Assembly (NCBI GenBank): GCA_019637355.1
Contig: JAHBVT010000001.1
Coordinates: 2,139,192-2,203,191, forward strand
Direction: 5' to 3'
Length of the DNA stretch: 64,000 bases
Source: Gemmatimonadaceae bacterium
GTDB lineage: Bacteria > Gemmatimonadota > Gemmatimonadetes > Gemmatimonadales > Gemmatimonadaceae
Position numbers and translations under genes: made by a program. The notes beneath the pieces are model-generated. The model searched no databases. It was not told where the DNA came from and saw only the letters and a list, made by a program, of their open reading frames with translations. Shown here in pieces: positions 17,903 through 21,157 of the stretch (within the stretch, counting starts at the first letter, position 1; every line of letters begins with the position of its first letter).

Positions 17903-17989
17903 GGACGGATGACGGAGGACGGATGCAAACAGAGGCGGGGCGGACCGTGGTATCGGTCCGCCCCGCTTCCGTCATCCGTCTTCCGTCGC
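17903..17989. repeat. Nested palindrome downstream of DinB gene and rpsG remnant
   Basis: Outer arms of GACGGAT/GACGGAG units (17904-17925) pair imperfectly with CTTCCGTCATCCGTCTTCC (about 17966-17987). Inside is a perfect 13-base hairpin, GCGGGGCGGACCG at 17935-17947 with its complement at 17954-17966 and a 6-base loop. The inner hairpin is a copy of the terminator after intact rpsG. It could terminate transcription from both sides. Confidence 0.65.
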
Positions 17990-18093
17990 ATTACCGGCGA
18001 CAATGCGCGAACGCCTTGTTCGCTTCCGCCATCCGGTGCGTGGCTTCCTTCTTCTTGACGGCGTTGCCTTCGCCCTTCGCGGCGGCGAGCACC
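17935..18093. repeat. Direct repeat copy A: rpsG 3' end plus terminator hairpin
   Basis: This block repeats 20626-20788 in the same orientation. Alignment by eye gives about eight differences over the 102-base coding part, roughly 92% identity, with the hairpin almost unchanged. Copy B is joined to intact rpsG; copy A is joined to the stop codon region of the regulatory-domain gene. The two copies bracket a 2.5-kb three-gene cassette. Confidence 0.85.
17992..18093 (-). pseudogene. rpsG: Remnant of ribosomal protein S7 gene (3' end only)
   Basis: Read on the minus strand this encodes [17 protein letters not shown] then [14 protein letters not shown] and a TAA stop, the last ~34 residues of S7. 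The intact gene has the same segment ending AHYRW, so the remnant has Y-to-C and W-to-R changes at the terminus. It has no start codon or upstream S7 sequence: homology stops about 3 bases before the TAG of the upstream gene. It is not expected to be functional. Confidence 0.88.
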
Positions 18094-18095
18094 GG

Positions 18096-19475
18096 CTAGC
18101 GTGTCCAGATAACCAGAGATCCACAGCCGTCGAAATCATTGAAGCGTGGCGGCGCGAACGACGCAGCATAGATCTCGATGCGCTTCGCACGCTCTAGCAG
18201 CCTCAGCAGTTCTTGTCGCTCGGTTGCGTCAATCATCTGGCCCAAGTCCGCACCATCCTCGAAGACTCGGGGGTCGCAGATGCCCATAGAACCCCGAATC
18301 TTGACCGCAGTACCGGACGCAACCACGAGGGGCACCAAGCTACCAAGGGCCTGCGGCGTGACCCGCGGAAGACGCCGCAGCATCGAATCCGTGACGAATC
18401 GACCCATTCCCGTCTTCCTCCGTTCCTCGAACTCTTCCTGCCACCGAGTCAGCGGCCGCTCCACGATTCGGATGGTGTCGAGCGCCGTGACCGGCTCAAG
18501 CGGGATCTCCCACGTCTCCTCCTCGAGTTTGTCTGGGATAGCGACGCGGAACGGCTGGTAGCCGAGCGCGCGGACCTCCACGTCAGCGGAGGCAGATGGG
18601 GCGACAATCAGGAATCGGCCCAATGAGTCGGTGAGGGCGCTCGCGATGCCACCCAGCGAAACTTCCGCTGCCTCTAGGGCGACGGAGGTGCGGGCGTTCA
18701 CGACTCGGCCGGCGACCTCACGCCGCTCCGTCGGCGCAGCCGCGACCAGCCGAATCCAGTTCGCTCCGGCTCCAATCGTGACCCTCCGTTCGCCAACCTC
18801 GGCATCAGGTCCTAACGCCACCACTCCGACATACTCGCCGACGGGAACGCCGCAGAGCGCAAAGAATCCATTCGCGTTCGACGTGTCCGCAGTCGCAAGC
18901 ACGGTTCGTGCCAGAACCGCGCGATCCAGCCGCAACTCCTGCCAAGTCGCCGTCACCTCAAGCCCAGGGCTCGGTGCACCGATACGATTCCGAATGAGCC
19001 CCATCAGCACGCTACGCTCGTCGCTGTCAGCGCTGCGGCCGCAGTGCTGGACGTGCAGGGCAGCGAGTGTCGGCGTGGAGAGGGTAACGGGCGTGCCGTC
19101 CCAACTGGACGGAACTTCACGTACGAGCGCCTCAAGGCCCAGCGTATCGAGCCCTGCGTACCAGGCCGTCAGGACGAACCCGCCTGAGGTCCGAGGTCTC
19201 GATCCGAGATCAAACCTCCCGTCGGCGTCCGTGACGACGATTCGCGCCTCACCGCGAATCATCACCTGCGCTCCAACGACGGGCCGTGGCTCCAGCGTGG
19301 AGTCTATGACAAAGCCCGTAACGTTGTGCTGCGCCTGCGCCGCCGGCACGAGCGCCACAAGAGGAAGGCAGAGTAGGCTGAGCCAAACTCCGCCGCGCCA
19401 GTGAGGCGGCCGCCCCTGAGCGGACCGACCGAGCCACCAGCTAGCGGTCGAAAATGGAGCGGAGCCGGTCCTCAT
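18096..19475 (-). CDS. Secreted carboxypeptidase-regulatory-like / plug-domain protein
   Basis: 459 residues from the ATG at 19475 (MRTGSAPF). A signal peptide is visible at about 29-48 (LSLLCLPLVALVPAAQA). Two or three CarboxypepD_reg-like beta-sandwich units follow: around 52-120 (VTGFVIDSTLEPRPVVGAQV) and around 255-335 (VAGRVVNARTSVALEAAEV). The C-terminal ~100 residues look like a TonB-receptor plug, with MLRRLPRVTPQALGSLV, then IRGSMGICDPRVFEDG and a final CGSLVIWTR. No beta barrel follows, so it is not itself a receptor. It overlaps the thiol-oxidoreductase gene by 35 bases, so it is third in the cassette operon. The stop lies next to the rpsG remnant. Confidence 0.75.
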   Translation of the reverse strand: MRTGSAPFSTASWWLGRSAQGRPPHWRGGVWLSLLCLPLVALVPAAQAQHNVTGFVIDSTLEPRPVVGAQVMIRGEARIVVTDADGRFDLGSRPRTSGGFVLTAWYAGLDTLGLEALVREVPSSWDGTPVTLSTPTLAALHVQHCGRSADSDERSVLMGLIRNRIGAPSPGLEVTATWQELRLDRAVLARTVLATADTSNANGFFALCGVPVGEYVGVVALGPDAEVGERRVTIGAGANWIRLVAAAPTERREVAGRVVNARTSVALEAAEVSLGGIASALTDSLGRFLIVAPSASADVEVRALGYQPFRVAIPDKLEEETWEIPLEPVTALDTIRIVERPLTRWQEEFEERRKTGMGRFVTDSMLRRLPRVTPQALGSLVPLVVASGTAVKIRGSMGICDPRVFEDGADLGQMIDATERQELLRLLERAKRIEIYAASFAPPRFNDFDGCGSLVIWTR

Positions 19476-20097
19476 CAGGCGGCAAGGCAAGCAGCTTTCC
19501 ATCCAAGAATACCGATGGCGTGCCAAGTACCGACACCTCCTGTGCGATGCGCTTGCTTTGCCAAATCCGCTCGAAGTGGCCGGAATCGGAGCGAGCAAGG
19601 CACTCCAGTGGGCCACTTGCGTTCGAAACCTGCGCACGACGCAGCAGCTCGCCGGGTGAAAACACTTGCAAGGAATCTTGAACGGCGAACAAGACATCCG
19701 CCAGTCTCAATGCGACCGATTCGGAGCGCACTGCACACTCGAACAACTTCGCAGCGGGAAGTGCTGCCGCGTGATAGTCGAGTGGCAAGTGTGCGTATCG
19801 CACGTCAGTCGCACTAAGTCGGTCGCCGAAGACGTGTACGAGTCGCGCGTGAAAGGTCTTGCACGCGGGACACTGGAAGTCAGTGAGAACGACCAGCGTT
19901 GGTCCGGTGGTCACCGGACCCAGAGGAGTACTCGATCGGAGCAACCCGTCCCATTCGGCACGAGAAATTTGGCGATCGCGTGGCGCGGGACCGCCTGGGC
20001 CGGACCGTGAGAAGAACTCCCTTCTGACGGTCGCCGCGGCGACTGCGAGCGCCGCGGCGACCATGAGATAGGTCAGAATTCGTTCGAGTCTCGTCAC
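19441..20097 (-). CDS. Membrane-anchored DsbA/thioredoxin-like thiol oxidoreductase
   Basis: 218 residues starting at GTG 20097, which overlaps the stop of the upstream peptide gene as GTGA. This start is preferred over longer in-frame options because it puts the single membrane anchor (ILTYLMVAAALAVAAATV) at the N-terminus. The catalytic motif CPAC is at residues 76-79 in VVLTDFQCPACKTFH. The cis-proline loop is GTPSVFLDG with P194. The arrangement is that of DsbA-like periplasmic oxidoreductases with a helical insert. The neighbour is a cysteine-rich secreted peptide, so a role in forming its disulfides is likely but inferred. Confidence 0.82.
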   Translation of the reverse strand: MTRLERILTYLMVAAALAVAAATVRREFFSRSGPGGPAPRDRQISRAEWDGLLRSSTPLGPVTTGPTLVVLTDFQCPACKTFHARLVHVFGDRLSATDVRYAHLPLDYHAAALPAAKLFECAVRSESVALRLADVLFAVQDSLQVFSPGELLRRAQVSNASGPLECLARSDSGHFERIWQSKRIAQEVSVLGTPSVFLDGKLLALPPDEDRLRSIFDR

Positions 20098-20366
20098 ACT
20101 TCGGGCGGGTAGCAGACAAGCATTGGTCCACCCTGACCACTGGGGTCGCCCATGCAGAACGGGCTCCAAGTGCAGTAAGGATTGACGCTGCCGCCACACA
20201 CCCCCGAGCAGGAATTTTCGGCGGCTGCTCCGACAGGGCATCCCAAGTCGTACTGGCAGGAGCCACACCCGGGATTCCCCAATCCCGCCGCACTTGCCTC
20301 GCCACCGGTGAAACTCAGCGCTGCCATTGCAAGCACGAGAGCAGAAAGAAGACGGACTGTTCGCAT
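20094..20366 (-). CDS. Small secreted eight-cysteine peptide
   Basis: 90 residues. A signal peptide (LLSALVLAMAALSF...EASA, cleavage near residue 26) precedes a ~64-residue mature part rich in Gly, Pro and Cys. The cysteines are at 34, 37, 43, 53, 57, 65, 71 and 85; the even number fits four disulfides. I do not recognise the family. It could be a structural or signalling peptide, a bacteriocin-like product, or a metal-binding protein. Its stop overlaps the start of the DsbA-like gene, so the two are probably translationally coupled. Upstream, an 11-G tract occupies the place of the ribosome-binding site. Confidence 0.7.
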   Translation of the reverse strand: MRTVRLLSALVLAMAALSFTGGEASAAGLGNPGCGSCQYDLGCPVGAAAENSCSGVCGGSVNPYCTWSPFCMGDPSGQGGPMLVCYPPEV

Positions 20367-20367
20367 A

Positions 20368-20378
20368 CCCCCCCCCCC
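20368..20378 (-). promoter_or_regulatory. G11 homopolymer directly upstream of the peptide start
   Basis: On the coding strand eleven G residues lie one base before the ATG at 20366 and are preceded by TAATTA, a possible -10 box. The tract takes the place of a Shine-Dalgarno sequence or of the transcription start. Homopolymers of this length are prone to slippage, so expression may vary between cells. This is inferred from sequence only. Confidence 0.5.
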
Positions 20379-20620: not shown

Positions 20621-20657
20621 GAAAAGCGGGGCGGACCGTAGTATCGGCCCGCCCCGC
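20621..20657 (-). terminator. Rho-independent terminator of rpsL-rpsG
   Basis: In the minus-strand transcript a 13-bp GC stem (arms 20645-20657 and 20626-20638, with one G-U pair, loop of 6) is followed by UUUUC (20625-20621). It starts 30 bases after the rpsG stop. Transcription of rpsL-rpsG should therefore stop before the cassette. Confidence 0.75.
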
Positions 20658-20788
20658 CTAGCTTCCGTCATCCGTCTTCCGTCGACTTACCAGCGATAGT
20701 GCGCGAACGCCTTGTTCGCTTCCGCCATCCGGTGCGTGTCTTCCTTCTTCTTGATGGCGTTGCCCTCGCCCTTCGCGGCAGCGAGGAC
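20626..20788. repeat. Direct repeat copy B: intact rpsG 3' end plus terminator
   Basis: Partner of the repeat at 17935-18093. It comprises the terminator hairpin, a spacer of CTTCCGTC-type units and the last ~34 codons of rpsG. The outer left arm present beside copy A is missing here, which marks the junction of the cassette near 20620. Confidence 0.85.
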
Positions 20789-21157
20789 CTCGGCGGCCAG
20801 CTTCTCGGCCATCGACTTCTCGTTGCGCTCGCGCGAGTAGAGGATCAACCAGCGCATCGCCAGCGCGGTGCGGCGGTCCGGGCGGACCTCGACGGGCACC
20901 TGGTAGGTGGCACCGCCGACGCGGCGGGACTTCACCTCGACGACCGGCTTGAGGTTGGTCAGCGCCTGCTTGAAGACCTGCACGCCCGGCTGCTGCGCCT
21001 TGGCCTCGACGACGTCCATCGCGCCGTAGAAGATGCGCTCGGCGGTGGACTTCTTGCCCTGGTACATCAGGACGTTGATGAACTTGCTGACAGTCTGGCT
21101 GTCGTAGCGCGCATCCGGGAGGATGCTGCGCTTCACGGCACTCTTGCGGCGGCTCAT
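20687..21157 (-). CDS. rpsG: 30S ribosomal protein S7
   Basis: A 156-residue primary 16S rRNA-binding protein of the small-subunit head. It opens [20 protein letters not shown], has [20 protein letters not shown] and [20 protein letters not shown], and ends in [12 protein letters not shown]. The length is normal. The ATG abuts the rpsL TAA. A diverged copy of its 3' end lies 2.7 kb downstream, beyond a three-gene cassette. In most bacteria fusA follows directly; here it does not. Confidence 0.98.

Follow-up and report, generated by a model that had tools for sequence, protein, structure and literature searches.

A three-gene cassette encoding a Cys-rich secreted peptide, a DsbA-like oxidoreductase and a plug-like partner protein was identified in the window, the whole 64-kb stretch of DNA that was analysed. 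The pairing of such peptides with DsbA-like genes recurs across the Gemmatimonadota, where these small, highly variable, Cys-rich secreted peptides constitute a widespread and apparently undescribed class. The unit is likely to be an oxidative-folding cassette, in which a Sec-exported four-disulfide peptide would be supplied with its own DsbA and with a partner acting outside the cell.

Gene content and insertion of the cassette

The peptide precursor of 90 amino acids is encoded by an ORF at 20094..20366 (minus strand) and consists of a Sec-type signal and a mature part of about 60 residues. In the ORF translation all eight Cys residues lie within the mature part with the spacing C-x2-C-x5-C-x9-C-x3-C-x7-C-x5-C-x13-C. 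The exported eight-Cys precursor described in the first-pass annotation is borne out by this ORF and its signal. No family was found for the peptide in profile searches of Pfam or NCBIfam, and no significant Pfam match was obtained for the peptide and 10 of its relatives. In related peptides the synonymous differences exceed the nonsynonymous differences in every pair tested (pS of 0.86 versus pN of 0.33, for example). The peptide frame is therefore conserved and under purifying selection. An 11-G homopolymer at 20368..20378 (minus strand) ends 2 nt ahead of the ATG of the peptide gene, in the place of a ribosome-binding site, and is the sole homopolymer of eight or more nucleotides in the 64-kb window. 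Phase variation and an assembly quirk are both possible explanations for this tract.

The membrane-anchored DsbA-like oxidoreductase is encoded at 19441..20097 (minus strand) and starts with a GTG at 20097. The junction between the stop codon of the peptide gene and this GTG reads GAAGTGTGACG, a 4-nt GTGA overlap. The enzyme has a single N-terminal hydrophobic helix, a CPAC motif and a GTP cis-Pro loop of the Thr-cis-Pro type, and the CPAC and GTP motifs are conserved in the alignment. Pfam matches were obtained to Thioredoxin_4 (PF13462, E = 2e-10) and DSBA (PF01323, E = 4e-6), both above the cut-off. The CPxC active site, the cis-Pro loop and the profile match place the enzyme in the DsbA/Thioredoxin_4 group. 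The four-base overlap and the Pfam matches confirm the initial description of a membrane-anchored CPAC oxidoreductase whose GTG lies over the peptide stop. A VKOR homologue is present in the genome, and a membrane-anchored CPxC protein accompanied by VKOR is expected to oxidise exported thiols.

The third gene (18096..19475, minus strand) encodes a secreted protein with a signal peptide, CarboxypepD_reg repeats (Pfam, E = 3e-19) and a plug-like domain. When its profile was compared with those of the PDB, it matched outer-membrane receptors of solved structure over their N-terminal extension and plug (residues 19-211), with E values of 2e-9 for 9gbc and 4e-5 for SusC. The Plug score of its relatives is below the Pfam cut-off. 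The protein terminates in C-G-x4-I/V-W-T directly after the plug-like region and contains no beta-barrel. The 35-nt overlap with the enzyme gene that had been proposed holds if the ATG at 19475 is the true start, but a clear Shine-Dalgarno sequence is absent there. The AlphaFold2 predictions were too poor to use, with mean pLDDT values of 46 for the third protein and 44 for the mature peptide.

The cassette is horizontally inserted between rpsG and fusA and has duplicated the 3' end of rpsG. It is located between rpsG and the DinB-family gene that precedes fusA, with rpsG/rpsL on one flank and DinB/fusA on the other. A direct repeat of 167 nt, not mentioned in the first-pass annotation, surrounds the insert. 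Copy 1, on the DinB side (17927..18093, minus strand), contains an rpsG remnant, about 105 coding nt from the 3' end of the gene, and a terminator-like hairpin. Copy 2 (20623..20789, minus strand) is 84% identical and contains the 3' end of the intact rpsG gene (20687..21157, minus strand), again with a terminator-like hairpin. The GC3 values of the cassette genes are 0.62-0.72 versus 0.87-0.96 for the flanking genes. No integrase gene was found in the insert. In the complete genome of a member of the same genus (G149) the order is rpsG, DinB and fusA, and the cassette is absent. A second member of the genus (G135) has different cargo after rpsG, and an rpsG remnant adjoins DinB on another contig. 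Because the site is empty in one genome, holds the cassette in the window and other cargo in G135, and is marked by remnants, the rpsG 3' end looks like a reused insertion site and in this genus behaves as an attachment site would. The loci that bear on the rpsG insertion are the repeat copies of the window and L195, L193 and L208.

Peptide and DsbA gene pairs across the phylum

Relatives of the DsbA-like profile are present in 379 of 395 Gemmatimonadota genomes at E ≤ 1e-12. The strongest loci, comprising 71 distinct DsbA-subfamily genes with enough flanking DNA, were scored for an upstream peptide, defined as a same-strand ORF of 135 or fewer amino acids within 800 nt whose N-terminus resembles a signal and whose remainder contains six or more Cys residues. 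Such a peptide was found at 35 of the 71 genes, and this recurrent pairing agrees with the suggestion, made from the window, that a secreted peptide has its own enzyme for disulfide formation. The value of 49% is a lower bound, since some of the negative loci hold Cys-rich ORFs that are missed by the strict filter; roughly one quarter to one third of the DsbA-subfamily loci lack a clear peptide. With the same criteria, matches were obtained at 2/71 loci in the antisense direction and at 8/71 downstream. The eight downstream peptides are probably real because all of them carry six or eight Cys residues. The background, determined with non-Gemmatimonadota loci, is 3 matches in 1.03 Mb of strand, or 0.26% per 890-nt stretch, and the remaining 61 kb of the window gave no match on either strand. 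Outside the phylum, none of some 50 DsbA-like loci had an upstream peptide; these control loci came from a DsbA profile search that returned mostly other phyla. MAG contigs labelled Polyangia and Myxococcota (L118 and L125) carry DsbA-subfamily genes that score as high as those of the Gemmatimonadota and have no upstream peptide. Transfer and mis-binning are alternative explanations for these contigs.

A Shine-Dalgarno sequence precedes 34 of 42 predicted peptide starts versus a background of 19%. At one locus (L136) a single DsbA gene is accompanied by a tandem array of three 6-Cys peptides with about 50% identity and a dN/dS of about 0.5-0.6, and one enzyme may serve several peptides there. 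A model of the peptide was also used to search the 395 genomes. The search returned 20 matches, none of them more than about 3 kb from a DsbA-subfamily gene, and at this sensitivity no peptide was detected apart from an oxidoreductase. The matches include three genomes (G223, G075 and G257) that had contributed no row to the model. The independent weight rests on eight of the matches because the other 12 had been selected as rows of the model for their position next to a DsbA gene. Every confident match lay near a DsbA gene, and the case named as contrary in the first-pass annotation, a homologous peptide without the oxidoreductase, was not encountered at this sensitivity. The plasmids searched for the peptide gave no match.

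Of 42 peptides, 41 have an even number of Cys residues (p about 1e-11). A common framework, C-x2-4-C-x3-8-C-x4-12-C-x2-5-C-x3-8-C-x4-8-C-x2-13-C, was found in 20 of the 8-Cys peptides, which come from many genera. Only 14 of 20,000 random placements of the Cys residues were as close to the median of the other peptides as the spacing of the window peptide, and each of four trio peptides tested was nearer to the median of the others than all but 9 to 17 of 20,000 placements. All eight Cys columns were aligned by MAFFT across 12 peptides; an alignment with three peptides misplaced the Cys residues, and the 12 rows were used instead. The reading of the peptide as a spurious Cys-rich ORF next to an ordinary DsbA gene would fit its lack of a database family. 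That reading was rejected, its probability being negligible, on the basis of the recurrence, the Cys parity, the framework, the Shine-Dalgarno signal and the excess of pS over pN.

An even number of Cys residues could also reflect metal binding. The peptide would then be an exported metallothionein-like metal binder, and the DsbA-like enzyme a reductase or isomerase that maintains the thiol state. Eight Cys residues, even counts and a CxxC start are compatible with such a protein, and Thr-cis-Pro loops occur in isomerase-type Dsb proteins too. This assignment is nevertheless improbable: the peptide is exported into an oxidising compartment, VKOR in the genome is an oxidising partner, and across the class the frameworks have variable spacing and tolerate 6-10 Cys residues.

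The three overlapping exported genes reported for the window are a real set that recurs. This genome contains two complete trios, the one in the window and a second at L017 3314-5248, between xerC and hslV. Three trios are located on one contig of G129, a member of the same family and another genus (L021 once and L040 twice), and two of these three look damaged. The peptide copy at L040 14835-15133 has an in-frame TAG in the signal region, and the DsbA copy at L021 4281-4904 has lost its C-terminus through a frame change; these are signs of gene decay or of sequencing error. Beyond its trios, the genome of the window has two more loci (L018 and L020) at which a secreted Cys-rich peptide is encoded next to a DsbA-like gene. 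IS110-like and IS30-like transposase genes or remnants adjoin these pairs (L018 2138-3457 and L020 4030-5079).

The peptide subtype of the trio was confidently identified in 2 of the 395 sampled Gemmatimonadota genomes. A single-sequence search with the peptide reached only G129 at E < 1e-4, and weaker matches (L005-L009 and L002) were discarded as not being Cys-framework peptides. The DsbA tree is star-like; partner types do not cluster, and the genes of one genome are scattered on long branches. The DsbA proteins of the five trios do not fall within one clade, so the trio does not look like a unit that is strictly inherited together. The tree describes a modular, fast-diverging system.

Partner proteins and proposed function

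The third gene is exchangeable between two mutually exclusive partner types, plug-like and beta-propeller. Within three genes of DsbA, a CarboxypepD_reg-type neighbour is encoded at 26 of 67 loci and a beta-propeller neighbour at 23, and the two occur together at none (p about 4e-7). One member of the propeller cluster weakly reaches DUF5128, "6-bladed beta-propeller". A partner was not significantly more frequent at DsbA loci with a detected peptide than at those lacking one (Fisher p = 0.26). The Gemmatimonadota have an expanded plug-like family, and relatives of the plug-like protein of the window also stand alone in the same genome. The core unit is the peptide and DsbA pair, and the plug-like gene is one alternative partner. 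The plug-like product proposed at first as an outer-membrane or surface partner is thus a putative partner and only one of the two alternative types.

In the proposed mechanism, the precursor would be exported by Sec and the signal removed. The translationally coupled enzyme, anchored in the inner membrane, would oxidise the eight Cys residues to four disulfides in the periplasm and would yield a compact, stable peptide of about 6 kDa. We infer the disulfides and the redox direction from the genes, and the adjacent enzyme is probably what forms these bonds. The enzyme would be reoxidised, probably by the VKOR homologue of the genome. The third product, a receptor-like N-terminal extension and plug without a barrel, may bind, retain or present the peptide or protect the producer from it. 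Elsewhere a beta-propeller would take its place.

The most likely role, tentatively assigned and still short of probable, is that of a released or surface-held antagonistic (bacteriocin-like) peptide. Two considerations favour antagonism: the peptides are hypervariable and multi-copy, with a patchy distribution and horizontal insertion, and bacteriocins are the closest functional analogues that have dedicated oxidoreductases (PMC4919988, PMC8620827, PMC13252029). Signalling or self-recognition comes next and is rather unlikely. Here the folded, secreted peptide would kill nothing, and the producing cell or its sisters would sense it through their plug-like or propeller partner. In favour of this role, the exported partner can have either of two binding-type folds, and the cassette lacks killing machinery and an obvious immunity gene. 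However, a linked kinase, sigma factor or regulator is not consistently seen, and the cassettes diverge far more than would suit a conserved signal.

It is doubtful that the peptide is a structural or adhesive part of the envelope, hardened by disulfides and anchored at the surface via the plug-like protein. Both products are exported and CarboxypepD_reg-like domains are common in surface proteins, but the patchy subtype (2 of 395 genomes), the low GC3 and the empty site in the sister species suit an accessory function better. For the antagonistic role, the slot of an immunity gene has one candidate, the plug-like protein, which alone is linked to the peptide and enzyme of the window.

Comparison with known systems

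A matching three-gene set was not found in open-access literature searches, which are weak evidence of novelty. The initial statement that no described system has this set is in line with these searches and with the lack of a match in Pfam and NCBIfam. The peptides resemble NVEALA (PF14055, Bacteroidota) as short secreted peptides of unknown function, and NVEALA peptides are associated with 6-bladed beta-propellers. Membership in NVEALA was rejected, with PF14055 matches in 0 of 61 genomes of the phylum, this genome included. The third protein resembles TonB-dependent receptors and SusC in its CarboxypepD_reg domain and plug-like region. A full TonB-dependent receptor was rejected, the protein being barrel-less and ending at the conserved CG..IWT. 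Ranthipeptides and other RiPPs have been reported in the Gemmatimonadota (PMC11651109). These are likewise Cys-rich ribosomal peptides, and the modification proposed for the window peptide is disulfide formation. Assignment as a ranthipeptide was rejected, as no radical SAM enzyme is encoded in the cassette or its immediate flanks.

Dedicated oxidoreductases have been described for pediocin PA-1 (PedC, PMC4919988), sublancin (BdbA/BdbB, PMC8620827) and TMcin (TmcD, PMC13252029). As in these systems, a small exported Cys peptide is encoded beside a gene for a thioredoxin-fold CxxC protein, which in the bacteriocin systems forms the disulfides of the peptide (PMC4919988, PMC8620827, PMC13252029). 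The three bacteriocins come from descriptions of Gram-positive bacteria, in which they are accompanied by ABC transporters or leader proteases and by immunity genes. The window cassette contains neither a dedicated ABC transporter nor a double-glycine leader, and no transporter or recognisable immunity gene of the kind found in classical bacteriocins. Unlike those bacteriocins, the Gemmatimonadota cassettes combine a Sec signal, 6-10 Cys residues and a plug-like or propeller partner.

The results point to an unannotated class of secreted, probably disulfide-rich peptides in an abundant, little-cultured phylum of soil and water. Gene callers and family libraries miss them because of their length and divergence, and a position upstream of this DsbA subfamily provides a simple search rule. 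The exclusive partners make the purpose of barrel-less plugs and secreted beta-propellers directly testable. If antimicrobial, the peptides would be a new natural-product source in which the folding enzyme is supplied with the gene. The Gemmatimonadota may, as a conjecture we hold with a little less than even confidence, possess disulfide-rich peptides in great number, diversifying quickly and used as an arsenal or as a repertoire of signals. Each would be folded by its own DsbA and paired with one of two interchangeable exported receptor-like proteins, a barrel-less plug or a beta-propeller, and the cassettes would move between genomes via insertion sites at gene ends. Such a repertoire would be a bacterial parallel to the defensin or conotoxin families.
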